Positions 15,301-58,115 of a stretch of 64,000 nt of DNA are shown in pieces. The position numbers and the translations under genes were made by a program. Each line of letters starts with the position of its first letter. Position 1 is the stretch's first letter. Origin of the DNA: Membranipora membranacea (taxonomy: Eukaryota > Bryozoa > Gymnolaemata > Cheilostomatida > Membraniporidae). The stretch spans positions 1,240,001 through 1,304,000 of the forward strand of contig OU612069.1 in NCBI GenBank assembly GCA_914767715.1, in the 5' to 3' direction. The notes beneath the pieces were generated by a model. That model searched no databases and was not told the origin of the DNA. It worked only from the letters and a program-made list of their open reading frames with translations.

Positions 15301-15611
15301 GGTAAAAATAATAATAAGTGAAAAATTGTAAGATTGTGATTGTTAGGTGGTTAGGTGGTTAAAAACAATTACAGTCTAATAGAATGCGGTGACCACAGTA
15401 TTTAGTTAATGTTACAGTCTAAGACTAAAATTCCAAACAAGGATTCATTCCAGAAAATATAATTAAATCTGTGACTTTGAATGACAGTAGCAGGTGCTCT
15501 ATCATCAAAATTCTCACAGGAATGATTTCTCAGGACAGGATAATATTATGAGAAACATCTATTGAGGTAACAATTTCCAGTCGATATATTCCTACAATGT
15601 TGTAGAAAAGT
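12366..15611. other. Mostly non-coding interval between the CEP135-like and LRR genes
   Basis: The SINE fragment 12452-12535 (family 1 body, minus orientation, GGCGCCAAGTTGTTCTCAGT) lies at the left. At about 14400-14470 a tRNA-like B-box on the minus strand (GGGTTCAAGTCCCGGTGG) may mark another SINE. No N-terminal CEP135 exon is found. A 33-codon minus-strand frame at 12786-12884 follows an acceptor-like TTTTTATTAG but ends in TAG with no usable donor, so I do not call it. TTTATT at 15243-15248 (AATAAA on the minus strand) is a plausible polyadenylation signal for the LRR gene ending at 15612. Confidence 0.45.
14865..15146 (+). other. Orphan open frame of unknown origin
   Basis: This is a 93-codon plus-strand frame with protein-like composition (LGIKHPDIDALMTYQTKTLA, CPSGRYRTIKYIGTWDLLP). 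Just past its stop, another frame continues with AYSLEEAKSLFKQSYQQGIE, as if a frameshift had split one reading frame. I recognise no family. It may be a broken mobile-element protein or an exon remnant; it has no initiation or splice context that I can defend. Confidence 0.2.
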
Positions 15612-27200: not shown

Positions 27201-30200
27201 TTAGTTGAGTAACTTTCTTGGAGAGATGATCGAAGAATGTTTCATCAGCCATATTCCCTGACACAGATAGATGTTCCAATATTCTGAGATTGTCCAGTCT
27301 GAAAAGTTAGAAATCAAATCATGATGACACTGCTGTAAGTTGAACACAAAAAATTATTTCAGATCAATTTTAGCTTTAACTGTAACATCTTTCGTGTTTA
27401 TCATAATTTAGAGATGATTCATAATGCAATTAGAAGCTGATTTTAGCACCAGTGTAATACTACCACGGGACATGTTGGGTATCCTCAGCCTAAATTAGAA
27501 CCGAGAAAATAATATCTCTCGTTCTAAGCAATAAAAGTTGCAATAACATTCAAATTATTCCGTACAAAATTGGTGAAACCAACTTGTGTACGGACATTAT
27601 GTCACGAAAGTGCAAAAAAATTTTGGTATATATTATAATTTCAGTAGGTAACCAGCATAAGCGTTTGTGATTTGGATGGACGCATGGAGCTCATCCTGAA
27701 GTGTCTTCAACTCTTTATTTTAGCACCACATGTTCTCTTCCACCAGTTCCTATATCTTGTGTCCATTACATGACATTAGACACTTTGAGAGCTTAGGCTG
27801 TGCCTTGTTCAGTCTGAAATTTTGTTTTTGTACATAATAATACATTTTGCCTCGAACATAAATAATATACACTTATAATATGAATACAGTCACTTACTGT
27901 AACTCCTTCAGTTTGAGCTTACATTCATCGATATTCAGTGTGGTGAGGCTGCCCGGCAGCACATGAGACATTTCTTTTACATCAAGGCCCATATTCCGAG
28001 ATAGGTCTAGAATCTTTAGTTTCTTCAGAGTTTCTAGAGCAGAGCTGTAATAATAGGGTAGAAAAATCTGTAATGGTAATGGCGTTGAAATGGAACAAAA
28101 TTTGTATATTGCATTGTATTTCCTTGTTTATTTCACATAAATCATTTCCTGCAAAATTTCTAAGTCTCATCAAATTCTTCCATGATTCTGCTAACCTTAG
28201 ATCATTACTGATAGTTCACTTCAAAATTATTAAGCTGCATTTATACTGCAAATTAGTTAGACAGATTTTTGTGAGAAATTTTGCCCTCTAAAATACGCAA
28301 TAACAAAAGGACAACTCATGGTCAGATCATCAATATATAAGAGTGCCAAATAACTCATTAGTTTTGTTTACAGATTTTACAATAGCATGATACCCCGCCC
28401 GGGGGCTGTCGGTTAAAGGTTGTAAAAAATCATGGTTTCACGCATCTTTGGTTTGGGCACGCTCGTCATCAGACAAAATCATGAAAACTTTGACAGCCCC
28501 AATCCTTACACAAGGTTCAATGTAACACAACACCATAATTTAGTGCTGTGAGCATTATTTCATCTGGTAAGACACAATAGGTCCTTTATTACAAAATAGA
28601 AGCAAGACTTTTTTGTAAGCGTCTGTTTGTGGTGTTATGCCAGATGACAACTGTTACAATAAAGCATTAGGAGCGATCTCAAAATAATCAGAACATCAAA
28701 GTATACACTCTTGTGCCACAGATCTATAAGCACTCAGTTAAACCTGGACATGGATAACTTCAGAACCTTTGTCACTCACATGTTTGTCAACCCACAGCCT
28801 CTAGCATAGAGGCGCTCCAAACTTTGTAAATCAGCCAAAAACTCAGGCAGACTCCCTAGCTGATTCTCTGAGATATCTATCTCCTTCAAGTGTTCAGGTA
28901 GATGGAGCCTGTAAAGATAAGCATAATCTAAAACATACGATGTCTATCGACAATTCAGTACATATTAAATTTGTTGTGGCTTGAAGAAATTTCACCATTA
29001 GTCTTAGAGTACTGCCTGCCATTTCACAGAAAACACATTGAAACCATGCAAGGACTCTCAGGATCTTCCACAGAGGACTGAGCATAGATTAACTTACTGA
29101 TTAGTTGAAGCATACAGTGGGATTTAACAAAAGAATACAGTTGCCTCAACTAAAAATCATTGGCCTGACATGAGTATGGGCACCACACAAGTATCATCTA
29201 CAGTTAACCAATCCTAGCAAACATCGTGTAACAATATTTTCAACGCTTCGCTGGATATTTTTTCAGCAAGTGTATGTTTATTTCAGTTACTATGATAAAG
29301 AGTTGCTCTTTCTTTTTCATTACCAAGTGAAATAAATTTAGAGTGTTACACTAGGGCGAATTTATCCTTACCAAGAGAGGTCATCCAGCTGTAACCCACA
29401 GGCTCTGATAGAGAGGATCTTGAGTTTTCTAGGAAGGTGCGGAAGAGACTTTACATCAGTAACTTTGTTCTCTGATAAGTCCAGGAATTCCAGCTTATCT
29501 AACTTCGTGTAACCTACGAAATATCACATCATTATCTCACTATTGAGGATTTAACAAAAGAATACAGTTATATCAACTAAAAATTTTTGACCTGACATGA
29601 GTATGGGCACCACACAAGTATCATCTACAGTTAACCAATCCTAGCAAACATGGTGTAACAATATTTTCAACGCATCGTAGGTTTTTTTTTCAGCAAGTGA
29701 ATGTTTATTTGAGTTACTATGATAAAGAGTTGCCCTATCTTTCTCATTGCCCAGTGAACCAGCTTTATAGTGTTACACTAGGGCGAATTTATCCTTACCA
29801 AGAGAGGTCATCCAGCTGTAACCCACAGTCTCTGATATAGAGGCTCTTGAGTTTTCTAGGAAGGTGCTGAAGAGACTTTACATCAGTAACTTTGTTCTCT
29901 GATAAGTCCAGGATTTCTAGGTCATATAAGCAGTGTAACCTACGAAATATCACATCATTATCTCACTATTAAGGATTTAACAAAAGAATACAGTTGCATC
30001 AACTAAAAAATTATTGGCTTGACTGACATGAGTATGGGCACCACACAAGTATCATCTACAGTTAACCAATCCTAGCAAACATGCTGTACCAATATTTTCA
30101 ACACATTGTTGGTTTTTTTTCAGCAAGTGTATGTTTATTTCAGTTACTATGATAAAGAGTTGCTCATTCTGTTTCATTACCAAGTGAAACAACTTTATAG

Positions 30201-33200
30201 TGTTACACTAGGGCGAACTTATCCTTACCAAGAGAGGTCATCCAGCAGCAACCCACAGGCTCTGACAGAGAGGCTCTTGAGTTTTCTAGGAAGGAGCCGA
30301 AGAGACTTTACATCAGTAATTTTGTTCTCTGATAAGTCCAGGAATTCCAGCTTATCTAACTCGTGTAACCTACGAAATATCACATCATTGTCTCACTATT
30401 GAGGATTTAACAGAAGAATACGGTTACATCAACTAAAAATTTTTGACCTGACATGAGTATGGGCACCACACAAGTATCATCTACAAGTAACCAATCCTAG
30501 CAAACATGGTGTAACAATATTTTCAACGCATCGTAGGTTTCTTTTTCAGCAAGTGAATGTTTATTTGAGTTACTATGATAAAGAGTTGCCCTTTCTTTCT
30601 CATTACCAAGTGAACCAGCTTTATAGTGTTACACTAGGGCGAACTTATCCTTACCAAGAGTGGTCATCCAGCTGTAACCCACAGAGCTTTATAGTGTTAC
30701 ACTAGGGCGAATTTATCCTTACCAAGAGAGGTCATCCAGCTGTAACCCACAGTCTCTGATATAGAGGCTCTTGAGTTTTCTAGGAAGGTGCTGAAGAGAC
30801 TTTACATCAGTAACTTTGTTCTCTGATAAGTCCAGGATTTCTAGGTCATATAAGCAGTGTAACCTACGAAATATCACATCATTATCTCACTATTAAGGAT
30901 TTAACAAAAGAATACAGTTGCATCAACTAAAAAATTATTGGCTTGACTGACATGAGTATGGGCACCACACAAGTATCATCTACAGTTAACCAATCCTAGC
31001 AAACATGCTGTACCAATATTTTCAACACATTGTTGGTTTTTTTTCAGCAAGTGTATGTTTATTTCAGTTACTATGATAAAGAGTTGCTCATTCTGTTTCA
31101 TTACCAAGTGAAACAACTTTATAGTGTTACACTAGGGCGAACTTATCCTTACCAAGAGAGGTCATCCAGCAGCAACCCACAGGCTCTGACAGAGAGGCTC
31201 TTGAGTTTTCTAGGAAGGAGCCGAAGAGACTTTACATCAGTAATTTTGTTCTCTGATAAGTCCAGGAATTCCAGCTTATCTAACTCGTGTAACCTACGAA
31301 ATATCACATCATGGTCTCACTATTGAGGATTTAACAGAAGAATACGGTTACATCAACTAAAAATTTTTGACCTGACATGAGTATGGGCACCACACAAGTA
31401 TCATCTACAAGTAACCAATCCTAGCAAACATGGTGTAACAATATTTTCAACGCATCGTAGGTTTCTTTTTCAGCAAGTGAATGTTTATTTGAGTTACTAT
31501 GATAAAGAGTTGCCCTTTCTTTCTCATTACCAAGTGAACCAGCTTTATAGTGTTACACTAGGGCGAACTTATCCTTACCAAGAGTGGTCATCCAGCTGTA
31601 ACCCACATGCTCTGATAGAGAGGCTCTTGAGTTCTCTAGGAAGGTGCCGAAGAGACTTTACATCAGTAACTTTGTTCTCTGATAAGTCCAGGATTTCTAG
31701 GTCATATAACCAGCGTAACCTACGAAATATCACATCATAATCTCACTATTGAGGATTTAACAAAAGAATACAGTTGCATCAACTAAAAATAATTGGCCTG
31801 AAATGAGTATGGGCACCACACAAGTATCATCTACAGTTAACCAATCCTAGCAAACATGGTGTAACAATATTTTCAACGCATCGTAGGTTTCTTTTTCAGC
31901 AAGTGAATGTTTATTTGAGTTACTATGATAAAGAGTTGCCCTTTCTTTCTCATTACCAAGTGAACCAGCTTTATAGTGTTAAACTAGGACGAATTTATCC
32001 TTACCAAGAGAGGTCATCCAGCTGTAACCCACAGGCTCTGATAGAGAGGGTCTTGAGTTTTCTAGGAAGGTGCGGAAGAGACTTTACATCAGTAACTTTG
32101 TTCTCTGATAAGTCCAGGAATTCCAGCTTATCTAACTCGTGTAACCTACGAAATATCACATCATTATCTCACTATTGAGGATTTAACAAAAGAATACAGT
32201 TGCATCAACTAAAAACTTTTGGCCTGACATGAGTATGGGCACCACACAAGTATCATCAACAGTTAACCAATCCTAGCGAACATGGTGTAACAATATTTGC
32301 AACGCATCGTAGGTTTATTTTTCAGCAAGTGAATGTTTATTTGAGTTACTATGATAAAGAGTTGCCCTTTCTTTCTCCTTACCAAGTGAAACAACTTTAT
32401 AGTGTTACACTAGGGCGAACTTATCCTTACCAAGAGTGGTCATCCAGCTGTAACCCACAGGCTCTGATAGAGAGGCTCTTGAGTTTTCTAGGAAGGTGCG
32501 GAAGAGACTTTACATCAGTAACTTTGTTCTCTGATAAGTCCAGGAATTACAGCTTATCTAACTCGTGTAACCTACGAAAGATCACATCATTATCTCACTA
32601 TTGAGGATTTAACAAAAGAATACAGTTGCATCAACTAAAAATTTTAGGCCTGACATGAGTATGGGCACCACACAAGTATCATCTACAGTTAACCAATCCT
32701 AGCAAACATGGTGTAACAATATTTTCAACGCATCGTAGGTTTTTTTTTCAGCAAGTGAATGTTTATTTGAGTTACTATGATAAAGAGTTGCCCTTTCTTT
32801 CTCTTTACCAAGTGAAACAACTTTATAGTGTTACACTAGGGCGAACTTATCCTTACCAAGAGTGGTCATCCAGCTGTAACCCACATGCTCTGATAGAGAG
32901 GCTCTTGAGTTCTCTAGGAAGGTGCCGAAGAGACTTTACATCAGTAACTTTGTTCTCTGATAAGTCCAGGATTTCTAGGTCATATAACCAGCGTAACCTA
33001 CGAAATATCACATCATAATCTCACTATTGAGGATTTAACAAAAGAATACAGTTGCATCAACTAAAAATAATTGGCCTGAAATGAGTATGGGCACCACACA
33101 AGTATCATCTACAGTTAACCAATCCTAGCAAACATGGTGTAACAATATTTTCAACGCATCGTAGGTTTCTTTTTCAGCAAGTGAATGTTTATTTGAGTTA

Positions 33201-36200
33201 CTATGATAAAGAGTTGCCCTTTCTTTCTCATTACCAAGTGAACCAGCTTTATAGTGTTAAACTAGGACGAATTTATCCTTACCAAGAGAGGTCATCCAGC
33301 TGTAACCCACAGGCTCTGATAGAGAGGGTCTTGAGTTTTCTAGGAAGGTGCGGAAGAGACTTTACATCAGTAACTTTGTTCTCTGATAAGTCCAGGAATT
33401 CCAACTTATCTAACTCGTGTAACCTACGAAATATCACATCATTATCTCACTATTGAGGATTTAACAAGAGAATACAGTTGCATCAACTAAAAATTTTTGG
33501 CCTGACATGACTATGGGCACCACACAAGTATCATCTACAGTTAACCAATCCTAGCAAACATGGTGTAACAATATTTTCAACGCATCGTAGGTTTCTTTTT
33601 CAGCAAGTGAATGTTTATTTGAGTTACTATGATAAAGAGTTGCCCTTTCTTTCTCATTACCAAGTGAACCAGCTTTATAGTGTTAAATTAGGGCGAATTT
33701 ATCCTTACCAAGAGAGGTCATCCAGCTGTAACCCACAGGCTCTGATAGAGAGGGTCTTGAGTTTTCTAGGAAGGTGCGGAAGAGACTTTACATCAGTAAC
33801 TTTGTTCTCTGATAAGTCCAGGAATTCAAGCTTATCTAACTCGTGTAACCTACGAAATATCACATCATTATCTCACTATTGAGGATTTAACAAAAGAATA
33901 CAGTTGCATCAACTAAAAACTTTTGGCCTGACATGACTATGGGCACCACACAAGTATCATCTACAGTTAACCAATCCTAGCAAACATGGTGAGACAATAT
34001 TTTCAACGCATCGCTGGTTTTTTTTTTCAGCAAGTGTATGTTTATTTCAGTTACTATGATAAAGAGTTGCCCTTTCTTTCTCATTACCAAGTGAACCAGC
34101 TTTATAGTGTTAAACTAGGGCGAATTTATCCTTACCAAGAGAGGTCATCCAGCTGTAACCCACAGGCTCTGATAGAGAGGCTCTTGAGTTTTCTAGGAAG
34201 GTGCGGAAGAGACTTTACATCAGTAAATTTGTTCTCTGATAAGTCCAGGATTTCCAGCTTATCTAACTCGTGTAAGCTGCGAAATATCACATCATTATCT
34301 CGCTATTGAGGATTTAACAAAAGAATACAGTTACATCTACTAAAAATTATTGGCCTGACATGAGGATGGGCACCACACAAGTATCATCTACAGTTAACCA
34401 ATCCTAGCAAACATGGTGTAACAATATTTTCAACGCATCGTAGGTTTCTTTTTCAGCAAGTGAATGTTTATTTGAGTTACTATGATAAAGAGTTGCCCTT
34501 TCTTTCTCATTACCAAGTGAACCAGCTTTATAGTGTTAAACTAGGACGAATTTATCCTTACCAAGAGAGGTCATCCAGCTGTAACCCACAGGCTCTGATA
34601 GAGAGGGTCTTGAGTTTTCTAGGAAGGTGCGGAAGAGACTTTACATCAGTAACTTTGTTCTCTGATAAGTCCAGGAATTCCAGCTTATCTAACTCGTGTA
34701 ACCTACGAAATATCACATCATTATCTCACTATTGAGGATTTAACAAGAGAATACAGTTGCATCAACTAAAAATTTTTGGCCTGACATGAGTATGGGCACC
34801 ACACAAGTATCATCTACAGTTAACCAATCCTAGCAAACATGGTGTAACAATATTTTCAACGCATCGTAGGTTTCTTTTTCAGCAAGTGAATGTTTATTTG
34901 AGTTACTATGATAAAGAGTTGCCCTTTCTTTCTCATTACCAAGTGAACCAGCTTTATAGTGTTAAATTAGGGCGAATTTATCCTTACCAAGAGAGGTCAT
35001 CCAGCTGTAACCCACAGGCTCTGATAGAGAGGGTCTTGAGTTTTCTAGGAAGGTGCGGAAGAGACTTTACATCAGTAACTTTGTTCTCTGATAAGTCCAG
35101 GAATTCAAGCTTATCTAACTCGTGTAACCTACGAAATATCACATCATTATCTCACTATTGAGGATTTAACAAAAGAATACAGTTGCATCAACTAAAAACT
35201 TTTGGCCTGACATGACTATGGGCACCACACAAGTATCATCTACAGTTAACCAATCCTAGCAAACATGGTGAGACAATATTTTCAACGCATCGCTGGTTTT
35301 TTTTTTCAGCAAGTGTATGTTTATTTCAGTTACTATGATAAAGAGTTGCCCTTTCTTTCTCATTACCAAGTGAACCAGCTTTATAGTGTTAAACTAGGGC
35401 GAATTTATCCTTACCAAGAGAGGTCATCCAGCTGTAACCCACAGGCTCTGATAGAGAGGGTCTTGAGTTTTCTAGGAAGGTGCGGAAGAGACTTTACATC
35501 AGTAAATTTGTTCTCTGATAAGTCCAGGATTTCCAGCTTATCTAACTCGTGTAACCTGCGAAATATCACATCATTATCTCGCTATTGAGGATTTAACAAA
35601 AGAATACAGTTACATCTACTAAAAATTATTGGCCTGACATGAGGATGGGCACCACACAAGTATCATCTACAGTTAACCAATCCTAGCAAACATGGTGTAA
35701 CAATATTTTCAACGCATCGTAGGTTTTTTTTCAGCAAGTGAATGTTTATTTGAGTTACTATGATAAAGAGTTGCCCTTTCTTTCTCATTACCAAGTGAAA
35801 CAACTTTATAGTGTTACACTAGGGCGAACTTATCCTTACCAAGAGTGGTCATCCAGCTGTAACCCACACGCTCTGATAGAGAGGCTCTTGAGTTCTCTAG
35901 GAAGGTGCCGAAGAGACTTTACATCAGTAACTTTGTTCTCTGATAAGTCCAGGATTTCCAGCTTATCTAACTTGTGTAACCTGCGAAATATCACATCATT
36001 ATCTCGCTATTGAGGATTTAACAAAAGAATACAGTTACATCAACTAAAAATTATTGGCCTGACATGAGTATGGGCACCACACAAGTATCATCTACAGTTA
36101 ACCAATCCTAGCAAACATGGTGAGACAATATTTTCAACGCATCGCTGGTTTTTTTTTTCAGCAAGTGTATGTTTATTTCAGTTACTATGATAAAGAGTTG

Positions 36201-39200
36201 CCCTTTCTTTCTCATTACCAAGTGAACCAACTTTATAGTGTTACACTAGGGCGAATTTATCCTTACCGATTCTTAGAGAGGTGATCCAGCTGTAACCCAC
36301 ATGCTCTGATAAAGAGACTCTTGAGTTTTCTAGGTAGCTCCGGAAGAGACATTACATCAGTAACTTCATTCTCTGATAGGTCCAGGAATTCCAGCTTATC
36401 TAACTCTTGTAACCTGCGAAATATCACATCATTATCTCGCTATGGAGGATTTAACAAAAGAAAACAGTTGCATCAACTAAAAATTATTGGCCTGACATGA
36501 GTATGGGCACCACACAAGTATCATCTACAGATAACCAATCCTAGCAAACATGGTGTAACAATATTTTCAACACATCTCTGGTTTTTTTTCCAGCAAGTGT
36601 ATGTTTATTTCAGTTACTATGATAAAGAGTTGCGCTTTCTTTCTCATTACCAAGTGAAGCAACTTTATAGTGTTACACTAGAGCGGATTTATCCTTACAG
36701 ATACTTAGGGAGGTGGTCCAGCTGTAACCCACAGGCTCTGAGAGAGAGGCTCTTGAGATTTCTAGGAAGAGTCCAAATATTCCTTACATCAGTAACTTTG
36801 TTCTCTGATAAGTCCAGGAATTCCAGCTTATCTAACTCGTTTAACCTACGAAATATCACATCATTATCTCACTATTGAGGATTTAACAAAAGAATACAGT
36901 TGCATCAACTAAAAATGATTGGCCTGACATGACTATGGGCACCACACAAGTATCATCTACAGTTAACCAATCCTAGCAAACATGGTGTAACAATATTTTC
37001 AACACATCTCTGGTTTTTTTTCCAGCAAGTGTATGTTTATTTCAGTTACTATGATAAAGAGTTGCCCTTTCTTTCTCATTACCAAGTGAACCAACTTTAT
37101 AGTGTTACACTAGGGCGAACTTATCCTTACCAAGAGTGGTCATCCAGCTGTAACCCACAGGCTCTGATAGAGAGGCTCTTGAGTTTTCTAGGAAGGTGCG
37201 GAAGAGACTTTACATCAGTAACTTTGTTCTCTGATAAGTCCAGGAATTCCAGCTTATCTAACTCGTGTAACCTACGAAAGATCACATCATTATCTCACTA
37301 TTGAGGATTTAACAAAAGAATACAGTTGCATCAACTAAAAATTTTAGGCCTGACATGAGTATGGGCACCACACAAGTATCATCTACAGTTAACCAATCCT
37401 AGCAAACATGGTGTAACAATATTTTCAACGCATCGTAGGTTTCTTTTTCAGCAAGTGAATGTTTATTTGAGTTACTATGATAAAGAGTTGCCCTTTCTTT
37501 CTCATTACCAAGTGAACCAGCTTTATAGTGTTACACTAGGGCGAATTTATCCTTACCAAGAGAGGTCATCCAGGTGTAACCCACAGGCTCTGATAGAGAG
37601 GGTCTTGAGTTTTCTAGGAAGGTGCCGAAGAGACTTTACATCAGTAACTTTGTTCTCTGATAAGTCCAGGAATTCCAGCTTATCTAACTCGTATAACCTA
37701 CGAAATATCACATCATTATCTCACTATTGAGGATTTAACAAAAGAATACAGTTGCATCAACTATAAACTTTTGGCCTGACATGAGTATGGGCACCACACA
37801 AGTATCATCTACAGTTAACCAATCCTAGCAAACATGGTGTAACAATATTTGCAACGCATCGTAGGTTTATTTTTCAGCAAGTGAATGTTTATTTGAGTTA
37901 CTATGATAAAGAGTTGCCCTTTCTTTCTCCTTACCAAGTGAAACAACTTTATAGTGTTACACTAGGGCGAACTTATCCTTACCAAGAGTGGTCATCCAGC
38001 TGTAACCCACAGGCTCTGATAGAGAGGCTCTTGAGTTCTCTAGGAAGGTGCCGAAGATACTTTACATCAGTAACTTTGTTCTCTGATAAGTCCAGGAATT
38101 CCAGCTTATCTAACTCGTGTAACCTACGAAATATCACATCATTATCTCACTATTGAGGATTTAACAAGAGAATACAGTTGCATCAACTAAAAATTTTTGG
38201 CCTGACATGAGTATGGGCACCACACAAGTATCATCTACAGTTAACCAATCCTAGCTAACATGGTGTAACAATATTTTCAACGCATCGTAGGTTTCTTTTT
38301 CAGCAAGTGAATGTTTATTTGAGTTACTATGATAAAGAGTTGCCCTTTCTTTCTCATTACCAAGTGAACCAGCTTTATAGTGTTAAACTAGGGCGAATTT
38401 ATCCTTACCAAGAGAGGTCATCCAGCTGTAACCCACAGGCTCTGATAGAGAGGGTCTTGAGTTTTCTAGGAAGGTGCGGAAGAGACTTTACATCAGTAAC
38501 TTTGTTCTCTGATAAGTCCAGGAATTCAAGCTTATCTAACTCGTGTAACCTACGAAATATCACATCATTATCTCACTATTGAGGATTTAACAAAAGAATA
38601 CAGTTGCATCAACTAAAAACTTTTGGCCTGACATGACTATGGGCACCACACAAGTATCATCTACAGTTAACCAATCCTAGCAAACATGGTGAGACAATAT
38701 TTTCAACGCATCGCTGGTTTTTTTTTTCAGCAAGTGTATGTTTATTTCAGTTACTATGATAAAGAGTTGCCCTTTCTTTCTCATTACCAAGTGAACCAGC
38801 TTTATAGTGTTAAACTAGGGCGAATTTATCCTTACCAAGAGAGGTCATCCAGCTGTAACCCACAGGCTCTGATAGAGAGGGTCTTGAGTTTTCTAGGAAG
38901 GTGCGGAAGAGACTTTACATCAGTAAATTTGTTCTCTGATAAGTCCAGGATTTCCAGCTTATCTAACTCGTGTAACCTGCGAAATATCACATCATTATCT
39001 CGCTATTGAGGATTTAACAAAAGAATACAGTTGCATCAACTAAAAATGATTGGCCTGACATGAGTACGGGCACCACACAAGTATCATCTACAGTTAACAA
39101 ATCCTAGCAAACATGGTGTAACAATATTTTCAACACATCTCTGGTTTTTTTTCCAGCAAGTGTATGTTTATTTCAGTTACTATGATAAAGAGTTGCCCTT

Positions 39201-42200
39201 TCTTTCTCATTACCAAGTGAACCAACTTTATAGTGTTACACTAGGGCGAACTTATCCTTACCAAGAGTGGTCATCCAGCTGTAACCCACAGGCTCTGATA
39301 GAGAGGCTCTTGAGTTTTCTAGGAAGGTGCGGAAGAGACTTTACATCAGTAACTTTGTTCTCTGATAAGTCCAGGAATTCCAGCTTATCTAACTCGTGTA
39401 ACCTACGAAAGATCACATCATTATCTCACTATTGAAGATTTAACAAAAGAATACAGTTGCATCAACTAAAAATTTTAGGCCTGACATGAGTATGGGCACC
39501 ACACAAGTATCATCTACAGTTAACCAATCCTAGCAAACATGGTGTAACAATATTTTCAACGCATCGTAGGTTTCTTTTTCAGCAAGTGAATGTTTATTTG
39601 AGTTACTATGATAAAGAGTTGCCCTTTCTTTCTCATTACCAAGTGAACCAGCTTTATAGTGTTACACTAGGGCGAATTTATCCTTACCAAGAGAGGTCAT
39701 CCAGGTGTAACCCACAGGCTCTGATAGAGAGGGTCTTGAGTTTTCTAGGAAGGTGCCGAAGAGACTTTACATCAGTAACTTTGTTCTCTGATAAGTCCAG
39801 GAATTCCAGCTTATCTAACTCGTATAACCTACGAAATATCACATCATTATCTCACTATTGAGGATTTAACAAAAGAATACAGTTGCATCAACTATAAACT
39901 TTTGGCCTGACATGAGTATGGGCACCACACAAGTATCATCTACAGTTAACCAATCCTAGCGAACATGGTGTAACAATATTTTCAACGCATCGTAGGTTTT
40001 TTTTTCAGCAAGTGAATGTTTATTTGAGTTACTATGATAAAGAGTTGCCCTTTCTTTCTCTTTACCAAGTGAAACAACTTTATAGTGTTACACTAGGGCG
40101 AACTTATCCTTACCAAGAGTGGTCATCCAGCTGTAACCCACATGCTCTGATAGAGAGGCTCTTGAGTTCTCTAGGAAGGTGCCGAAGAGACTTTACATCA
40201 GTAACTTTGTTCTCTGATAAGTCCAGGATTTCTAGGTCATATAACCAGCGTAACCTACGAAATATCACATCATAATCTCACTATTGAGGATTTAACAAAA
40301 GAATACAGTTGCATTAACTAAAAATAATTGGCCTGAAATGAGTATGGGCACCACACAAGTATCATCTACAGTTAACCAATCCTAGCAAACATGGTGTAAC
40401 AATATTTTCAACGCATCGTAGGTTTCTTTTTCAGCAAGTGAATGTTTATTTGAGTTACTATGATAAAGAGTTGCCCTTTCTTTCTCATTACCAAGTGAAC
40501 CAGCTTTATAGTGTTAAACTAGGACGAATTTATCCTTACCAAGAGAGGTCATCCAGCTGTAACCCACAGGCTCTGATAGAGAGGGTCTTGAGTTTTCTAG
40601 GAAGGTGCGGAAGAGACTTTACATCAGTAACTTTGTTCTCTGATAAGTCCAGGAATTCCAGCTTATCTAACTCGTGTAACCTACGAAATATCACATCATT
40701 ATCTCACTATTGAGGATTTAACAAAAGAATACAGTTGCATCAACTAAAAACTTTTGGCCTGACATGAGTATGGGCACCACACAAGTATCATCTACAGTTA
40801 ACCAATCCTAGCGAACATGGTGTAACAATATTTGCAACGCATCGTAGGTTTATTTTTCAGCAAGTGAATGTTTATTTGAGTTACTATGATAAAGAGTTGC
40901 CCTTTCTTTCTCCTTACCAAGTGAAACAACTTTATAGTGTTACACTAGGGCGAACTTATCCTTACCAAGAGTGGTCATCCAGCTGTAACCCACAGGCTCT
41001 GATAGAGAGGCTCTTGAGTTTTCTAGGAAGGTGCGGAAGAGACTTTACATCAGTAACTTTGTTCTCTGATAAGTCCAGGAATTCCAGCTTATCTAACTCG
41101 TGTAACCTACGAAAGATCACATCATTATCTCACTATTGAGGATTTAACAAAAGAATACAGTTGCATCAACTAAAAATTTTAGGCCTGACATGAGTATGGG
41201 CACCACACAAGTATCATCTACAGTTAACCAATCCTAGCAAACATGGTGTAACAATATTTTCAACGCATCGTAGGTTTCTTTTTCAGCAAGTGAATGTTTA
41301 TTTGAGTTACTATGATAAAGAGTTGCCCTTTCTTTCTCATTACCAAGTGAACCAGCTTTATAGTGTTACACTAGGGCGAATTTATCCTTACCAAGAGAGG
41401 TCATCCAGGTGTAACCAGCGTAACCTACGAAATATCACATCATAATCTCACTATTGAGGATTTAACAAAAGAATACAGTTGCATTAACTAAAAATAATTG
41501 GCCTGAAATGAGTATGGGCACCACACAAGTATCATCTACAGTTAACCAATCCTAGCAAACATGGTGTAACAATATTTTCAACGCATCGTAGGTTTCTTTT
41601 TCAGCAAGTGAATGTTTATTTGAGTTACTATGATAAAGAGTTGCCCTTTCTTTCTCATTACCAAGTGAACCAGCTTTATAGTGTTAAACTAGGACGAATT
41701 TATCCTTACCAAGAGTGGTCATCCAGCTGTAACCCACATGCTCTGATAGAGAGGCTCTTGAGTTCTCTAGGAAGGTGCCGAAGAGACTTTACATCAGTAA
41801 CTTTGTTCTCTGATAAGTCCAGGATTTCTAGGTCATATAACCAGCGTAACCTACGAAATATCACATCATAATCTCACTATTGAGGATTTAACAAAAGAAT
41901 ACAGTTGCATCAACTAAAAATAATTGGCCTGAAATGAGTATGGGCACCACACAAGTATCATCTACAGTTAACCAATCCTAGCAAACATGGTGTAACAATA
42001 TTTTCAACGCATCGTAGGTTTCTTTTTCAGCAAGTGAATGTTTATTTGAGTTACTATGATAAAGAGTTGCCCTTTCTTTCTCATTACCAAGTGAACCAGC
42101 TTTATAGTGTTAAACTAGGACGAATTTATCCTTACCAAGAGAGGTCATCCAGCTGTAACCCACAGGCTCTGATAGAGAGGGTCTTGAGTTTTCTAGGAAG

Positions 42201-45200: not shown

Positions 45201-48200
45201 CATCAGTAACTTTGTTCTCTGATAAGTCCAGGAATTCAAGCTTATCTAACTCGTGTAACCTACGAAATATCACATCATTATCTCACTATTGAGGATTTAA
45301 CAAAAGAATACAGTTGCATCAACTAAAAACTTTTGGCCTGACATGACTATGGGCACCACACAAGTATCATCTACAGTTAACCAATCCTAGCAAACATGGT
45401 GAGACAATATTTTCAACGCATCGCTGGTTTTTTTTTTCAGCAAGTGTATGTTTATTTCAGTTACTATGATAAAGAGTTGCCCTTTCTTTCTCATTACCAA
45501 GTGAACCAGCTTTATAGTGTTAAACTAGGGCGAATTTATCCTTACCAAGAGAGGTCATCCAGCTGTAACCCACAGGCTCTGATAGAGAGGGTCTTGAGTT
45601 TTCTAGGAAGGTGCGGAAGAGACTTTACATCAGTAAATTTGTTCTCTGATAAGTCCAGGATTTCCAGCTTATCTAACTCGTGTAACCTGCGAAATATCAC
45701 ATCATTATCTCGCTATTGAGGATTTAACAAAAGAATACAGTTACATCTACTAAAAATTATTGGCCTGACATGAGGATGGGCACCACACAAGTATCATCTA
45801 CAGTTAACCAATCCTAGCAAACATGGTGTAACAATATTTTCAACGCATCGTAGGTTTTTTTTCAGCAAGTGAATGTTTATTTGAGTTACTATGATAAAGA
45901 GTTGCCCTTTCTTTCTCATTACCAAGTGAAACAACTTTATAGTGTTACACTAGGGCGAACTTATCCTTACCAAGAGTGGTCATCCAGCTGTAACCCACAC
46001 GCTCTGATAGAGAGGCTCTTGAGTTCTCTAGGAAGGTGCCGAAGAGACTTTACATCAGTAACTTTGTTCTCTGATAAGTCCAGGATTTCCAGCTTATCTA
46101 ACTTGTGTAACCTGCGAAATATCACATCATTATCTCGCTATTGAGGATTTAACAAAAGAATACAGTTACATCAACTAAAAATTATTGGCCTGACATGAGT
46201 ATGGGCACCACACAAGTATCATCTACAGTTAACCAATCCTAGCAAACATGGTGAGACAATATTTTCAACGCATCGCTGGTTTTTTTTTTCAGCAAGTGTA
46301 TGTTTATTTCAGTTACTATGATAAAGAGTTGCCCTTTCTTTCTCATTACCAAGTGAACCAACTTTATAGTGTTACACTAGGGCGAATTTATCCTTACCGA
46401 TTCTTAGAGAGGTGATCCAGCTGTAACCCACATGCTCTGATAAAGAGACTCTTGAGTTTTCTAGGTAGCTCCGGAAGAGACATTACATCAGTAACTTCAT
46501 TCTCTGATAGGTCCAGGAATTCCAGCTTATCTAACTCTTGTAACCTGCGAAATATCACATCATTATCTCGCTATGGAGGATTTAACAAAAGAAAACAGTT
46601 GCATCAACTAAAAATTATTGGCCTGACATGAGTATGGGCACCACACAAGTATCATCTACAGATAACCAATCCTAGCAAACATGGTGTAACAATATTTTCA
46701 ACACATCTCTGGTTTTTTTTCCAGCAAGTGTATGTTTATTTCAGTTACTATGATAAAGAGTTGCGCTTTCTTTCTCATTACCAAGTGAAGCAACTTTATA
46801 GTGTTACACTAGAGCGGATTTATCCTTACAGATACTTAGGGAGGTGGTCCAGCTGTAACCCACAGGCTCTGAGAGAGAGGCTCTTGAGATTTCTAGGAAG
46901 AGTCCAAATATTCCTTACATCAGTAACTTTGTTCTCTGATAAGTCCAGGAATTCCAGCTTATCTAACTCGTTTAACCTACGAAATATCACATCATTATCT
47001 CACTATTGAGGATTTAACAAAAGAATACAGTTGCATCAACTAAAAATGATTGGCCTGACATGACTATGGGCACCACACAAGTATCATCTACAGTTAACCA
47101 ATCCTAGCAAACATGGTGTAACAATATTTTCAACACATCTCTGGTTTTTTTTCCAGCAAGTGTATGTTTATTTCAGTTACTATGATAAAGAGTTGCCCTT
47201 TCTTTCTCATTACCAAGTGAACCAACTTTATAGTGTTACACTAGGGCGAACTTATCCTTACCAAGAGTGGTCATCCAGCTGTAACCCACAGGCTCTGATA
47301 GAGAGGCTCTTGAGTTTTCTAGGAAGGTGCGGAAGAGACTTTACATCAGTAACTTTGTTCTCTGATAAGTCCAGGAATTCCAGCTTATCTAACTCGTGTA
47401 ACCTACGAAAGATCACATCATTATCTCACTATTGAGGATTTAACAAAAGAATACAGTTGCATCAACTAAAAATTTTAGGCCTGACATGAGTATGGGCACC
47501 ACACAAGTATCATCTACAGTTAACCAATCCTAGCAAACATGGTGTAACAATATTTTCAACGCATCGTAGGTTTCTTTTTCAGCAAGTGAATGTTTATTTG
47601 AGTTACTATGATAAAGAGTTGCCCTTTCTTTCTCATTACCAAGTGAACCAGCTTTATAGTGTTACACTAGGGCGAATTTATCCTTACCAAGAGAGGTCAT
47701 CCAGGTGTAACCCACAGGCTCTGATAGAGAGGGTCTTGAGTTTTCTAGGAAGGTGCCGAAGAGACTTTACATCAGTAACTTTGTTCTCTGATAAGTCCAG
47801 GAATTCCAGCTTATCTAACTCGTATAACCTACGAAATATCACATCATTATCTCACTATTGAGGATTTAACAAAAGAATACAGTTGCATCAACTATAAACT
47901 TTTGGCCTGACATGAGTATGGGCACCACACAAGTATCATCTACAGTTAACCAATCCTAGCAAACATGGTGTAACAATATTTGCAACGCATCGTAGGTTTA
48001 TTTTTCAGCAAGTGAATGTTTATTTGAGTTACTATGATAAAGAGTTGCCCTTTCTTTCTCCTTACCAAGTGAAACAACTTTATAGTGTTACACTAGGGCG
48101 AACTTATCCTTACCAAGAGTGGTCATCCAGCTGTAACCCACAGGCTCTGATAGAGAGGCTCTTGAGTTCTCTAGGAAGGTGCCGAAGATACTTTACATCA

Positions 48201-51200
48201 GTAACTTTGTTCTCTGATAAGTCCAGGAATTCCAGCTTATCTAACTCGTGTAACCTACGAAATATCACATCATTATCTCACTATTGAGGATTTAACAAGA
48301 GAATACAGTTGCATCAACTAAAAATTTTTGGCCTGACATGAGTATGGGCACCACACAAGTATCATCTACAGTTAACCAATCCTAGCTAACATGGTGTAAC
48401 AATATTTTCAACGCATCGTAGGTTTCTTTTTCAGCAAGTGAATGTTTATTTGAGTTACTATGATAAAGAGTTGCCCTTTCTTTCTCATTACCAAGTGAAC
48501 CAGCTTTATAGTGTTAAACTAGGGCGAATTTATCCTTACCAAGAGAGGTCATCCAGCTGTAACCCACAGGCTCTGATAGAGAGGGTCTTGAGTTTTCTAG
48601 GAAGGTGCGGAAGAGACTTTACATCAGTAACTTTGTTCTCTGATAAGTCCAGGAATTCAAGCTTATCTAACTCGTGTAACCTACGAAATATCACATCATT
48701 ATCTCACTATTGAGGATTTAACAAAAGAATACAGTTGCATCAACTAAAAACTTTTGGCCTGACATGACTATGGGCACCACACAAGTATCATCTACAGTTA
48801 ACCAATCCTAGCAAACATGGTGAGACAATATTTTCAACGCATCGCTGGTTTTTTTTTTCAGCAAGTGTATGTTTATTTCAGTTACTATGATAAAGAGTTG
48901 CCCTTTCTTTCTCATTACCAAGTGAACCAGCTTTATAGTGTTAAACTAGGGCGAATTTATCCTTACCAAGAGAGGTCATCCAGCTGTAACCCACAGGCTC
49001 TGATAGAGAGGGTCTTGAGTTTTCTAGGAAGGTGCGGAAGAGACTTTACATCAGTAAATTTGTTCTCTGATAAGTCCAGGATTTCCAGCTTATCTAACTC
49101 GTGTAACCTGCGAAATATCACATCATTATCTCGCTATTGAGGATTTAACAAAAGAATACAGTTGCATCAACTAAAAATGATTGGCCTGACATGAGTACGG
49201 GCACCACACAAGTATCATCTACAGTTAACAAATCCTAGCAAACATGGTGTAACAATATTTTCAACACATCTCTGGTTTTTTTTCCAGCAAGTGTATGTTT
49301 ATTTCAGTTACTATGATAAAGAGTTGCCCTTTCTTTCTCATTACCAAGTGAACCAACTTTATAGTGTTACACTAGGGCGAACTTATCCTTACCAAGAGTG
49401 GTCATCCAGCTGTAACCCACAGGCTCTGATAGAGAGGCTCTTGAGTTTTCTAGGAAGGTGCGGAAGAGACTTTACATCAGTAACTTTGTTCTCTGATAAG
49501 TCCAGGAATTCCAGCTTATCTAACTCGTGTAACCTACGAAAGATCACATCATTATCTCACTATTGAAGATTTAACAAAAGAATACAGTTGCATCAACTAA
49601 AAATTTTAGGCCTGACATGAGTATGGGCACCACACAAGTATCATCTACAGTTAACCAATCCTAGCAAACATGGTGTAACAATATTTTCAACGCATCGTAG
49701 GTTTCTTTTTCAGCAAGTGAATGTTTATTTGAGTTACTATGATAAAGAGTTGCCCTTTCTTTCTCATTACCAAGTGAACCAGCTTTATAGTGTTACACTA
49801 GGGCGAATTTATCCTTACCAAGAGAGGTCATCCAGGTGTAACCCACAGGCTCTGATAGAGAGGGTCTTGAGTTTTCTAGGAAGGTGCCGAAGAGACTTTA
49901 CATCAGTAACTTTGTTCTCTGATAAGTCCAGGAATTCCAGCTTATCTAACTCGTATAACCTACGAAATATCACATCATTATCTCACTATTGAGGATTTAA
50001 CAAAAGAATACAGTTGCATCAACTATAAACTTTTGGCCTGACATGAGTATGGGCACCACACAAGTATCATCTACAGTTAACCAATCCTAGCGAACATGGT
50101 GTAACAATATTTTCAACGCATCGTAGGTTTTTTTTTCAGCAAGTGAATGTTTATTTGAGTTACTATGATAAAGAGTTGCCCTTTCTTTCTCTTTACCAAG
50201 TGAAACAACTTTATAGTGTTACACTAGGGCGAACTTATCCTTACCAAGAGTGGTCATCCAGCTGTAACCCACATGCTCTGATAGAGAGGCTCTTGAGTTC
50301 TCTAGGAAGGTGCCGAAGAGACTTTACATCAGTAACTTTGTTCTCTGATAAGTCCAGGATTTCTAGGTCATATAACCAGCGTAACCTACGAAATATCACA
50401 TCATAATCTCACTATTGAGGATTTAACAAAAGAATACAGTTGCATTAACTAAAAATAATTGGCCTGAAATGAGTATGGGCACCACACAAGTATCATCTAC
50501 AGTTAACCAATCCTAGCAAACATGGTGTAACAATATTTTCAACGCATCGTAGGTTTCTTTTTCAGCAAGTGAATGTTTATTTGAGTTACTATGATAAAGA
50601 GTTGCCCTTTCTTTCTCATTACCAAGTGAACCAGCTTTATAGTGTTAAACTAGGACGAATTTATCCTTACCAAGAGAGGTCATCCAGCTGTAACCCACAG
50701 GCTCTGATAGAGAGGGTCTTGAGTTTTCTAGGAAGGTGCGGAAGAGACTTTACATCAGTAACTTTGTTCTCTGATAAGTCCAGGAATTCCAGCTTATCTA
50801 ACTCGTGTAACCTACGAAATATCACATCATTATCTCACTATTGAGGATTTAACAAAAGAATACAGTTGCATCAACTAAAAACTTTTGGCCTGACATGAGT
50901 ATGGGCACCACACAAGTATCATCTACAGTTAACCAATCCTAGCGAACATGGTGTAACAATATTTGCAACGCATCGTAGGTTTATTTTTCAGCAAGTGAAT
51001 GTTTATTTGAGTTACTATGATAAAGAGTTGCCCTTTCTTTCTCCTTACCAAGTGAAACAACTTTATAGTGTTACACTAGGGCGAACTTATCCTTACCAAG
51101 AGTGGTCATCCAGCTGTAACCCACAGGCTCTGATAGAGAGGCTCTTGAGTTTTCTAGGAAGGTGCGGAAGAGACTTTACATCAGTAACTTTGTTCTCTGA

Positions 51201-54200
51201 TAAGTCCAGGAATTCCAGCTTATCTAACTCGTGTAACCTACGAAAGATCACATCATTATCTCACTATTGAGGATTTAACAAAAGAATACAGTTGCATCAA
51301 CTAAAAATTTTAGGCCTGACATGAGTATGGGCACCACACAAGTATCATCTACAGTTAACCAATCCTAGCAAACATGGTGTAACAATATTTTCAACGCATC
51401 GTAGGTTTCTTTTTCAGCAAGTGAATGTTTATTTGAGTTACTATGATAAAGAGTTGCCCTTTCTTTCTCATTACCAAGTGAAACATCTTTATAGTGTTAC
51501 ACTAGGGCGAATTTATCCTTACCAAGAGAGGTCATCCAGGTGTAACCCACAGGCTCTGATAGAGAGGGTCTTGAGTTTTCTAGGAAGGTGCCGAAGAGAC
51601 TTTACATCAGTAACTTTGTTCTCTGATAAGTCCAGGAATTCCAGCTTATCTAACTCGTATAACCTACGAAATATCACATCATTATCTCACTATTGAGGAT
51701 TTAACAAAAGAATACAGTTGCATCAACTATAAACTTTTGGCCTGACATGAGTATGGGCACCACACAAGTATCATCTACAGTTAACCAATCCTAGCGAACA
51801 TGGTGTAACAATATTTTCAACGCATCGTAGGTTTTTTTTTCAGCAAGTGAATGTTTATTTGAGTTACTATGATAAAGAGTTGCCCTTTCTTTCTCTTTAC
51901 CAAGTGAAACAACTTTATAGTGTTACACTAGGGCGAACTTATCCTTACCAAGAGTGGTCATCCAGCTGTAACCCACATGCTCTGATAGAGAGGCTCTTGA
52001 GTTCTCTAGGAAGGTGCCGAAGAGACTTTACATCAGTAACTTTGTTCTCTGATAAGTCCAGGATTTCTAGGTCATATAACCAGCGTAACCTACGAAATAT
52101 CACATCATAATCTCACTATTGAGGATTTAACAAAAGAATACAGTTGCATTAACTAAAAATAATTGGCCTGAAATGAGTATGGGCACCACACAAGTATCAT
52201 CTACAGTTAACCAATCCTAGCAAACATGGTGTAACAATATTTTCAACGCATCGTAGGTTTCTTTTTCAGCAAGTGAATGTTTATTTGAGTTACTATGATA
52301 AAGAGTTGCCCTTTCTTTCTCATTACCAAGTGAACCAGCTTTATAGTGTTAAACTAGGACGAATTTATCCTTACCAAGAGAGGTTATCCAGCTGTAACCC
52401 ACAGGCTCTGATAGAGAGGGTCTTGAGTTTTCTAGGAAGGTGCGGAAGAGACTTTACATCAGTAACTTTGTTCTCTGATAAGTCCAGGAATTCCAGCTTA
52501 TCTAACTCGTGTAACCTACGAAATATCACATCATTATCTCACTATTGAGGATTTAACAAAAGAATACAGTTGCATCAACTAAAAACTTTTGGCCTGACAT
52601 GAGTATGGGCACCACACAAGTATCATCTACAGTTAACCAATCCTAGCAAACATGGTGTAACAATATTTTCAACGCATCGTAGGTTTCTTTTTCAGCAAGT
52701 GAATGTTTATTTGAGTTACTATGATAAAGAGTTGCCCTTTCTTTCTCATTACCAAGTGAACCAGCTTTATAGTGTTACACTAGGGCGAATTTATCCTTAC
52801 CAAGAGAGGTCATCCAGGTGTAACCCACAGGCTCTGATAGAGAGGGTCTTGAGTTTTCTAGGAAGGTGCCGAAGAGACTTTACATCAGTAACTTTGTTCT
52901 CTGATAAGTCCAGGAATTCCAGCTTATCTAACTCGTATAACCTACGAAATATCACATCATTATCTCACGATTGAGGATTTAACAAAAGAATACAGTTGCA
53001 TCAACTATAAACTTTTGGCCTGACATGAGTATGGGCACCACACAAGTATCATCTACAGTTAACCAATCCTAGCGAACATGGTGTAACAATATTTTCAACG
53101 CATCGTAGGTTTTTTTTTCAGCAAGTGAATGTTTATTTGAGTTACTATGATAAAGAGTTGCCCTTTCTTTCTCTTTACCAAGTGAAACAACTTTATAGTG
53201 TTACACTAGGGCGAACTTATCCTTACCAAGAGTGGTCATCCAGCTGTAACCCACATGCTCTGATAGAGAGGCTCTTGAGTTCTCTAGGAAGGTGCCGAAG
53301 AGACTTTACATCAGTAACTTTGTTCTCTGATAAGTCCAGGATTTCTAGGTCATATAACCAGCGTAACCTACGAAATATCACATCATAATCTCACTATTGA
53401 GGATTTAACAAAAGAATACAGTTGCATTAACTAAAAATAATTGGCCTGAAATGAGTATGGGCACCACACAAGTATCATCTACAGTTAACCAATCCTAGCA
53501 AACATGGTGTAACAATATTTTCAACGCATCGTAGGTTTCTTTTTCAGCAAGTGAATGTTTATTTGAGTTACTATGATAAAGAGTTGCCCTTTCTTTCTCA
53601 TTACCAAGTGAACCAGCTTTATAGTGTTAAACTAGGACGAATTTATCCTTACCAAGAGAGGTCATCCAGCTGTAACCCACAGGCTCTGATAGAGAGGGTC
53701 TTGAGTTTTCTAGGAAGGTGCGGAAGAGACTTTACATCAGTAACTTTGTTCTCTGATAAGTCCAGGAATTCCAGCTTATCTAACTCGTGTAACCTACGAA
53801 ATATCACATCATTATCTCACTATTGAGGATTTAACAAAAGAATACAGTTGCATCAACTAAAAACTTTTGGCCTGACATGAGTATGGGCACCACACAAGTA
53901 TCATCTACAGTTAACCAATCCTAGCGAACATGGTGTAACAATATTTGCAACGCATCGTAGGTTTATTTTTCAGCAAGTGAATGTTTATTTGAGTTACTAT
54001 GATAAAGAGTTGCCCTTTCTTTCTCCTTACCAAGTGAAACAACTTTATAGTGTTACACTAGGGCGAACTTATCCTTACCAAGAGTGGTCATCCAGCTGTA
54101 ACCCACAGGCTCTGATAGAGAGGCTCTTGAGTTCTCTAGGAAGGTGCCGAAGATACTTTACATCAGTAACTTTGTTCTCTGATAAGTCCAGGAATTCCAG

Positions 54201-57200
54201 CTTATCTAACTCGTGTAACCTACGAAATATCACATCATTATCTCACTATTGAGGATTTAACAAGAGAATACAGTTGCATCAACTAAAAATTTTTGGCCTG
54301 ACATGAGTATGGGCACCACACAAGTATCATCTACAGTTAACCAATCCTAGCAAACATGGTGTAACAATATTTTCAACGCATCGTAGGTTTCTTTTTCAGC
54401 AAGTGAATGTTTATTTGAGTTACTATGATAAAGAGTTGCCCTTTCTTTCTCATTACCAAGTGAACCAGCTTTATAGTGTTAAACTAGGGCGAATTTATCC
54501 TTACCAAGAGAGGTCATCCAGCTGTAACCCACAGGCTCTGATAGAGAGGGTCTTGAGTTTTCTAGGAAGGTGCGGAAGAGACTTTACATCAGTAACTTTG
54601 TTCTCTGATAAGTCCAGGAATTCCAGCTTATCTAACTCGTGTAACCTACGAAATATCACATCATTATCTCACTATTGAGGATTTAACAAAAGAATACAGT
54701 TGCATCAACTAAAAACTTTTGGCCTGACATGACTATGGGCACCACACAAGTATCATCTACAGTTAACCAATCCTAGCAAACATGGTGAGACAATATTTTC
54801 AACGCATCGCTGGTTTTTTTTTTCAGCAAGTGTATGTTTATTTCAGTTACTATGATAAAGAGTTGCCCTTTCTTTCTCATTACCAAGTGAACCAGCTTTA
54901 TAGTGTTAAACTAGGGCGAATTTATCCTTACCAAGAGAGGTCATCCAGCTGTAACCCACAGGCTCTGATAGAGAGGGTCTTGAGTTTTCTAGGAAGGTGC
55001 GGAAGAGACTTTACATCAGTAAATTTGTTCTCTGATAAGTCCAGGATTTCCAGCTTATCTAACTCGTGTAACCTGCGAAATATCACATCATTATCTCGCT
55101 ATTGAGGATTTAACAAAAGAATACAGTTACATCTACTAAAAATTATTGGCCTGACATGAGGATGGGCACCACACAAGTATCATCTACAGTTAACCAATCC
55201 TAGCAAACATGGTGTAACAATATTTTCAACGCATCGTAGGTTTTTTTTCAGCAAGTGAATGTTTATTTGAGTTACTATGATAAAGAGTTGCCCTTTCTTT
55301 CTCATTACCAAGTGAAACAACTTTATAGTGTTACACTAGGGCGAACTTATCCTTACCAAGAGTGGTCATCCAGCTGTAACCCACAGGCTCTGATAGAGAG
55401 GCTCTTAAGTTTTCTAGGAAAGTCTGGAGGAGACATTACATCAGTAACTTTGTTCTCTGACAAGTCCAGGATTTCCAGCTCATCTAACTCGTGTAACCTA
55501 CGAAATATCACATCATTATCACACTATTGAGGATTTAACAAAAGAATACAGTTGCATCAACCAAAAATAATTAGCCTGACATGAGTATGGGCACCACACA
55601 AGTATCATCTACAGTTAACCAATCCTAGCAAACATGGTGTCACAATATTTTCATGTAACTGGCGTAACCTACGAAATATCACATCATTATCTCACTATTG
55701 CGGATTTAACAAAAGAATAAAGTTATATAAACAAAACAAAGATTTCCCCATGCTGAAACATTGATTATAAAAATAACCCATAGACTAGTTGGCGAACACA
55801 TATTGAACCAGACTATAGGGCGCTCACGGTTTTGCCCTATGGATTGAACATATTTTCACTTACTGAGTAGTTCGAGCATACAGTTGGGCGTTCCCCAGGT
55901 CTAATATCTCCAGATCTGGTACCAGGTCTCTAAGATTATGTGGAACATCACCCCATATTCTCATATGTGTGACAGTCATATTTGCTGTCTCTTTTTGAAA
56001 CTGCGGTACTGTCCGCAGCTTCCCTTCGAAATCATCAGGCGGCTCCACTTTATCAGAGCCAGTGCTGGCATTTGAAAACATCGGTGAGTGAGTTGAAATG
56101 ACCAAATTCAGTGTAATTCTAACTGTAAATTGCGAAGTTACATCAACGGATGGGAACGCCCGGAGTTCACCTAGCCGGTTCTCCGATATATCTATAACCT
56201 CCAGCTGTTCTGGTAATTTGAGCCTGTGAATGAAAATAGCACTTTAACTTCCATTGCTTCAAATCCTAACTTCTAGTTTTAGTAATCCTAGTTTTTTTTA
56301 ACTAGTGCGATACCTATTTACCTGATACAGAGCCAGAGCCGGCATTTGAAAACATCGGTGAGCGAGTTGAAATGCAATAGAGAAGAATTTACTAACGCTT
56401 ACAGTGCCAGAGGCACCGTTCTCCATATCCCCCGGCGGGGGGCCGTCGGCAGGGGGAAAAAGTCTGGGGGGCCCAGACTACCTATCACCCTACTCCACAC
56501 CTTTAAATGCGCCCCATTCTTCGCATCTCATGGGCAGCACTCAAACAATGATTAAAACTGACTCAGAGACAGAAAATAAATCCCAAGAAATAATAGGTTT
56601 ATCCTCACTCTGTATGTGATATATCTCTAAGATCCAGTCTTTTGAGGCTTGGTGCCACACGCATCAGATCTGATGGCTTTGGTATATCTCCCCATATCGT
56701 CCTCTCTTTGCCTTTGAAGTATTTCGGTGGCGTAGCCTTTCCTATTTTGTACCAAATGCGGTATTCTACAAATAGCAAAATATTTTCCGGAAAGTACCCG
56801 TAAATAAAAGTGAGTTTCGCATTTACTACTATATCACTAAAGGTACTTTAGGAAAGTACCATACATTACATGTTAATACATTTTGACACCATTGCTCAAC
56901 TTCTTCTTTATGGAAACATAAAACCCTCACCTCAAATATTGAACTAAATTATTGTATTCTCGATCAAATCTTAACTTGAGTTTCTATTTACCAACATTGC
57001 GTTATTTAGCTAGCGCCCTCACAAACAGAACAGAAGCAAGGGCGTCGTGGTGAGGCTAATCTAAGAGGTAAATTACTGCTTACTTTTAGCTACAGAATGT
57101 GTCTCATCGCCACTCTAAAAAAATAGATGTACTGAAGATAAGAGTAAGGTGACAAAGAGGTCACAATTGCAAACGGAACAATTTTAACATTTTTGTGTCG

Positions 57201-57933: not shown

Positions 57934-58115
57934 AAACTACTGTCAGTGGTGTTATCAGTCTCTTGTTAGTTTAAGCACTTGAAATGGTAGTAGCATTTCA
58001 TTATCAGCCGCATGGTTTATAATGTTGAAACTACTGTCAGTGGTGTTATCAGTCTCTTGTTAGTTTAAGCACTTGAAATGGTAGTAGCATTTCATTATCA
58101 GCCGCATGGTTTATA
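57934..58115. repeat. Two-copy tandem duplication, 94-bp period
   Basis: AAACTACTGTCAGTGGTGTT through CAGCCGCATGGTTTATAA occurs twice in direct succession (from 57934 and from 58028) with virtually no differences. Each copy includes GTAGCATTTCATTATCAGCC, related to the ATCAACCAC hairpin family. Confidence 0.85.

Follow-up and report, generated by a model that had tools for sequence, protein, structure and literature searches.

Two described systems come closest to the tandem exon array considered here. According to Xiong et al. 2019 (PMC6564038), leucine-rich repeat (LRR) genes of the ciliate Tetrahymena, thousands in number, carry tandem arrays of 90-bp phase-2 exons, "1 to 50 in most genes," separated by uniform short introns (∼257 bp in T. 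thermophila); exon number varies even among inparalogues, ectopic recombination is proposed, and a supplementary legend cites RNA-Seq support. Brown-algal ROCO genes, as described by Teng et al. 2024 (PMC11378527), contain 72-bp phase-2 LRR exons of one LRR each, attached to ROC-COR, encode up to 49 LRRs, undergo alternative splicing, and show diversifying selection with the selected sites on the concave side. We analyzed a stretch of 64,000 nucleotides from the bryozoan Membranipora membranacea (assembly GCA_914767715.1, contig OU612069.1, positions 1,240,001–1,304,000 of the forward strand; hereafter, the window), which contains 62 tandem LRR exons on the minus strand within one predicted gene. 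With moderate confidence, and judging from sequence, we regard this array as a coding exon variable-number tandem repeat (VNTR), in which splicing would join the predicted units in frame to give a long LRR solenoid, variable in length, and would pass over the broken units. Coding repeats of other kinds offer further comparisons: the LPA unit consists of exons and introns in frame, and NBPF Olduvai units carry exons. In published reports, the kringle IV-2 coding VNTR of LPA is a tandem coding unit of 5.6 kb present in 1–40 units per allele (PMC11462820), NBPF Olduvai repeats form tandem ∼1.6-kb units with higher-order repeats (PMC9584774), and Dscam holds tandem exon arrays in one gene that undergo mutually exclusive splicing (PMC1397879). 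A preliminary description of the locus had stated that no comparable LRR exon array was known, which the Tetrahymena (PMC6564038) and brown-algal (PMC11378527) arrays contradict; among the titles and abstract openings returned by searches of open-licence literature, none describes an animal LRR exon array of such size.

A tandem array of 62 LRR exons

The array comprises 62 head-to-tail units of ∼426 bp on the minus strand (29372..55497, running from 55497 to 29372). Units were located by their splice-border motifs, and Tandem Repeats Finder (TRF) rows gave repeat extents (29120–41416, score 18,763; 41420–55653, score 25,303), in agreement with the earlier proposal of one array at this spacing. 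Unit spacings were 425–433 bp, plus one each of 318 and 494 bp, which leaves no gap for a further unit. Each of the 62 exons follows an AG and precedes a GTAAGG, in line with the earlier claim of intact splice sites. After removal of one spurious 312-nt row, the exons comprised 56 of 141 nt, four of 147 nt (46830–46976, 46544–46398, 36845–36699, and 36413–36267, minus strand), one of 33 nt, and one of 142 nt; the lengths and common phase given in the preliminary description hold except for the last of these, which is out of frame. A normal exon consists of one base, 46 codons, and two bases, and is thus phase 2 at both ends, with TGG as the split codon at most junctions and introns of ∼285 nt. 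It encodes two LRRs, matching Pfam PF12799 LRR_4 ("2 copies") at 27.4 bits against a curated cut-off of 27, which places it among LRR proteins. Consistent with the near-identity first noticed, the 34 distinct window units compared differ from one another by 5.3% on average. Distinct sequences number 38 among the 62 units and 21 among the 62 exons, and 35 of 141 columns vary among 17 distinct 141-nt exons, many of them in a single exon only.

Full intact modules make up 59 of the 62 units, and the statement that every unit is a complete exon fails for the other three. Unit 55 (32431..32571, minus strand) contains an in-frame TAA at codon 8; unit 62, the last (29372..29513, minus strand), is the 142-nt exon, frameshifted by one extra base; and unit 34 (41392..41424, minus strand) is a 33-nt remnant in which an in-frame loss of 108 nt has removed most of the module. 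At the 5' edge of the array, a partial unit (55498..55668, minus strand) retains an acceptor and exon start without a donor of its own, and TRF reported a tandem duplication of 68 bp within the array (30617–30752). The array lies between an upstream N1-type exon, an LRR-like cap (55864..56057, minus strand; donor CA/gtaagtg, phase 2, exon start not fixed), and LRR module A (28780..28908, minus strand; phase 2 on both sides). Splice motifs are present at both flanking sites predicted earlier, the donor after 55864 and the acceptor before 28908, and both are phase 2, matching the array. A single protein from all 62 exons, as first proposed, is not supported by frame joining: with every exon joined, the frame stops in unit 55, after 2,518 array residues, and omission of unit 55 alone shifts the stop to the array end, at the frameshifted unit 62. 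Omission of units 55 and 62 together yields an open frame of ∼2,900 codons from the N1 exon into module A, and omission of the whole array likewise joins the 55864 exon to the 28908 exon in an open frame.

Two blocks of 8,484 bp within the array, a downstream copy (32868..41351) and an upstream copy (42999..51482), both on the minus strand, are identical to one another at a spacing of 10,131 bp. The match at this spacing runs past the identical part, with 76 mismatches over 31250–41420, all but four of them at positions up to 32867. Unit 34 lies 41 bp from an edge of the identical block, and units 55 and 62 and the partial unit sit outside the blocks, toward the array ends. The repeated unit order together with the exact block points to a recent block duplication, and the whole pattern is what unequal crossing-over combined with such duplication would produce, which we infer to be the most likely route of expansion.

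Coding selection across related arrays

A search with the 426-bp unit returned, own array aside, 55 matches, 54 on the same contig (C5, ∼1.135–1.561 Mb) and one, a 138-bp piece, on a second contig (C9); because this search evaluates only a small number of candidates and passes over common words, its counts are lower bounds. The 46-residue exon, for which all 120 candidates were scored, matched 103 places on C5 and a single place on C9, or 104 in total. A dispersed satellite was rejected since the relatives lie nearly all in the C5 cluster, with the caveat that unit counts are minimum values. Five other arrays and one single locus together hold 44 exon-like matches, 40 of them intact (AG/GT borders and no stop; 135, 138, 141, or 150 nt) and four degenerate or partial. 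Intact exons number 14, 3, 6, 7, and 10 in the other arrays, as compared to the 62 exons of the window array, and two arrays are not fully regular (spacings of 1109, 1104, 525, and 277 bp in Q2 and 631 bp in P15).

For tests of coding selection, four of the 44 non-window matches were left out (three edge fragments of array Q1 and one frameshifted exon near C5:1135486), and 102 units were pooled, 62 from the window and 40 from elsewhere. Exclusion of the 33-nt unit and of identical copies gave 75 distinct units, and removal of the frameshifted unit 62 brought these to 74. Intron changes on the tree of these 74 units served as the neutral yardstick, and a second tree was built from introns only. 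One of the 74 distinct exons bears a stop, as compared to neutral means of 28.8 and 65.1 on the two trees, and none of 1000 simulations on either tree had one or fewer; with five broken exons added, namely unit 62 and the four degenerate matches (six stops or breaks), 2 and 0 of 1000 simulations had six or fewer. Tree reconstruction returned three to six stop changes, passing ones included, versus 23 expected. Internal gaps, not counting those that touch alignment ends, are multiples of three in five of six exon cases and 10 of 41 intron cases (Fisher p = 0.009). Fifteen LRR core positions (L, E, L, S, E, N, K, T, D, L, K, L, R, C, and G), chosen after viewing the site table, underwent 0–3 amino acid changes versus 4.3–8.2 expected (one replicate), while alignment positions 5, 6, 8, 9, 12, 25, 28, 29, 33, 48, and 50 underwent 11–21 versus ∼6–8 expected (one replicate). 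By our reading of the motif, most of these fast sites would lie just before each strand, except position 12, which would lie on the strand; exposed strand positions other than 12, as assigned by motif, change little. Random open frames were rejected by the stop simulations, gap phases, and site rates. The family-wide scarcity of stops and the conservation of many LRR core positions identify these as coding exons under selection for the reading frame and at many core positions.

The surrounding gene and its neighbors

Downstream of the array and module A, on the same strand, follow LRR module B (27898..28044), the type that the array exons resemble, and module C (27155..27298). A second set (24235..26442: A 26442–26311, B 25528–25385, C 24780–24634, and D 24366–24235) and a third (20533..22735: N1-type 22735–22556, A 22351–22220, B 21604–21461, C 21067–20921, and D 20661–20533) are given by tblastn limits rather than exon limits. 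These 11 A–D module exons, with the N1-type and cap-like exons, agree roughly with the ∼14 LRR exons previously counted in the rest of the gene. The presumed C-terminal coding exon (17670..18272, minus strand), a 201-residue frame without a Pfam match, would complete the order N1-[62]-A-B-C-A-B-C-D-N1-A-B-C-D-CTD, where CTD is the C-terminal domain. This frame occurs in several copies in the cluster and has relatives P0001 and P0002, two relatives on public contigs sharing 50% and 41% identity; the AlphaFold model of the domain was unusable (mean pLDDT 36.9). Upstream, a truncated A module reads through, in a single open frame, into an N1-type exon (55863–56243; fragment plus exon, 56225–55884), apparently a fusion by rearrangement. 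Neither ROC nor COR was matched in the ten segments scanned; three of these, the 232-, 336-, and 186-residue downstream frames, had no Pfam match of any kind. The four typed modules match internalin A LRRs (8e-29), a match that reflects motif geometry only. A protein search with the spliced array gave 178 matches; the 120 listed are generic LRR proteins, the best among them at 32% identity over 92% of the query. At gathering scores, Rfam had 0 matches in the window.

Comparison of paralogues covered part of the C5 cluster. A neighboring paralogue at window coordinates 130–113 kb (beyond the window) has the order N1-[14]-A-B-C-D-N1-A-B-C-D-CTD, with no stop in its 14 array exons; the match to its first B module begins at residue 12, and this module may be damaged. 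The window gene shares this order, with one extra A-B-C set and 62 array exons. Modules A, B, and C are each matched once in a second neighbor, at 84–75 kb, which also has a related C-terminal frame but no array, and given this neighbor and the likeness of the array exon to module B, the array exon looks like an amplified B module.

Several other features of the region were observed. A 14.4-kb stretch (window 3009–17400) is 98.1% identical to 97801–112198 (beyond the window), ∼95 kb away; it belongs to a tandem duplication of the gene cluster that extends further. Around the LRR genes a coiled-coil exon recurs four times on the same strand (e.g., window 12368–12204 and 8731–8567; 64963–64799) and a second such exon twice; we take them to resemble pieces of a centrosomal coiled-coil gene. 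In Pfam, one of the two had only sub-cut-off matches and the other none. The window also contains a 16-bp minisatellite (2865–3383; 32 copies, 96% matches), related 15/30-bp repeat tracts in opposite orientation ∼0.8 kb apart (19316–19492 and 20316–20425), and a perfect 94-bp tandem duplication (57934–58116, 1.9 copies).

Readings of the array and comparison with known systems

In the coding VNTR reading, one phase 2-2 exon encoding two LRRs, with its short intron, would have been multiplied in one member of a tandem LRR family, a recent 10-kb block duplication adding to unequal crossing-over within the array. By virtue of its symmetric phase, each added unit would lengthen the solenoid by 47 residues and leave the frame unchanged, and since its phase fits both its own copies and the neighboring exons, a defective unit could be skipped without cost to the frame. 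If the gene is transcribed and most units are spliced as predicted, the most likely product would be a long LRR solenoid, variable in length, with a cap at the N terminus and an uncharacterized domain at the C terminus. The allele seen here would have to skip units 55 and 62 for the protein to escape truncation. A bolder proposal, which we make tentatively, is that one gene encodes more than 100 near-identical LRRs, among the longest known solenoids, with the germline copy number of the 426-bp unit setting solenoid length and differing between individuals, and phase symmetry letting broken units be skipped.

A number of observations weigh against the coding VNTR reading. Units 55 and 62 break the predicted frame, and the array acceptors lack a strong pyrimidine tract (10 of 20 in the five units examined). 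The stop simulations take no account of recombination between units, and their outcome varies strongly with the tree; the stop test gives weak evidence in the window alone, where 117 and 24 of 1000 simulations had one or no stop-bearing exon among 34. Differences among window exons slightly exceed those among introns (0.059 versus 0.047), and the exons have a ratio of nonsynonymous to synonymous differences (pN/pS) of 1.46. Across the family, the first two codon positions change at least as much as the third, the LRR leucines at aligned positions 7 (9 changes versus 5.0 expected) and 15 (6 versus 4.9) are not slow, and the total amino acid change rate is 0.94–0.96 of the intron rate, a value explained by the fast sites.

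Several of these points would fit the main rival reading, a dead expansion, in which the family is coding elsewhere and the window array grew as a satellite in a decaying or array-skipping gene, with most units absent from mRNA. The stop, the frameshift, the 33-nt remnant, and the partial first unit are what such decay would leave, the weak window-only stop test is compatible with it, skipping of the whole array keeps 55864–28908 in frame, and the A-module fragment fused to the N1 exon is a sign of rearrangement. However, 59 of 62 units are intact with every splice border kept, and in the 14-exon neighbor the module order is almost unchanged and none of the array exons has a stop; we judge a dead expansion rather unlikely. 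An assembly duplication may have inflated the copy number, the true array being ∼40 units, an explanation compatible with either a coding VNTR or a dead expansion. Exact block duplications inside exon arrays can hide assembly error, and the 8,484 identical bases at a fixed spacing are the evidence in its favor; but the block match continues with differences, as a real duplication would, and the same unit also forms other arrays, which makes this explanation unlikely. Quite unlikely, in our estimate, is a bank of exons for variable inclusion or gene conversion, yielding different solenoids from one gene by Dscam-like choice or as donor cassettes. Symmetric phases would allow any exon subset, the family has hypervariable positions, and brown-algal ROCO LRR exons are alternatively spliced (PMC11378527). 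Yet with so few variable columns among the distinct 141-nt exons, choice among them would add little diversity, and, by motif, the exposed strand positions other than 12 vary little. Array exons may still be variably included; as the copies are near identical, length would then be the main variable.

The comparison with described systems can be drawn on design and on content. Like the Tetrahymena arrays, the window array consists of tandem LRR exons of fixed length with uniform short phase 2 introns, and where a Tetrahymena-type array may be recognized by at least three consecutive phase-2 LRR exons of one length, 56 of the 62 exons here share a length of 141 nt. Unlike the Tetrahymena exons, which are 90 nt long and encode approximately one 30-residue repeat, each exon here holds two LRRs, and the 62 copies belong to one gene cluster; the array is built like those of Tetrahymena but its exons are not of that gene family's exact 90-nt length. 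With brown-algal ROCO genes it shares tandem phase-2 LRR exons, diversifying selection, and many LRRs per gene, whereas its exons are not the 72 nt of the brown-algal LRR-ROCO genes and its fast sites, by motif reading and with position 12 excepted, fall mostly before the strands. Since exon length differs from both, the array belongs to neither gene family. LPA involves a kringle domain and known allele differences, in contrast to the single assembly available here, in which copy number varies between paralogues; NBPF differs in its domain and its larger unit; and, unlike in Dscam, the copies are near identical and exon use is predicted from sequence. The cluster catches array growth in progress, its paralogues carrying 3 to 62 copies, a range that opens the relation of exon phase and unequal crossing-over to solenoid length to direct test. 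The phase-2 design of the ciliate and brown-algal arrays is shared by the bryozoan array, which is built from a different exon and is set apart by the length of that exon, the two repeats in each, and the presence of 62 nearly identical copies.

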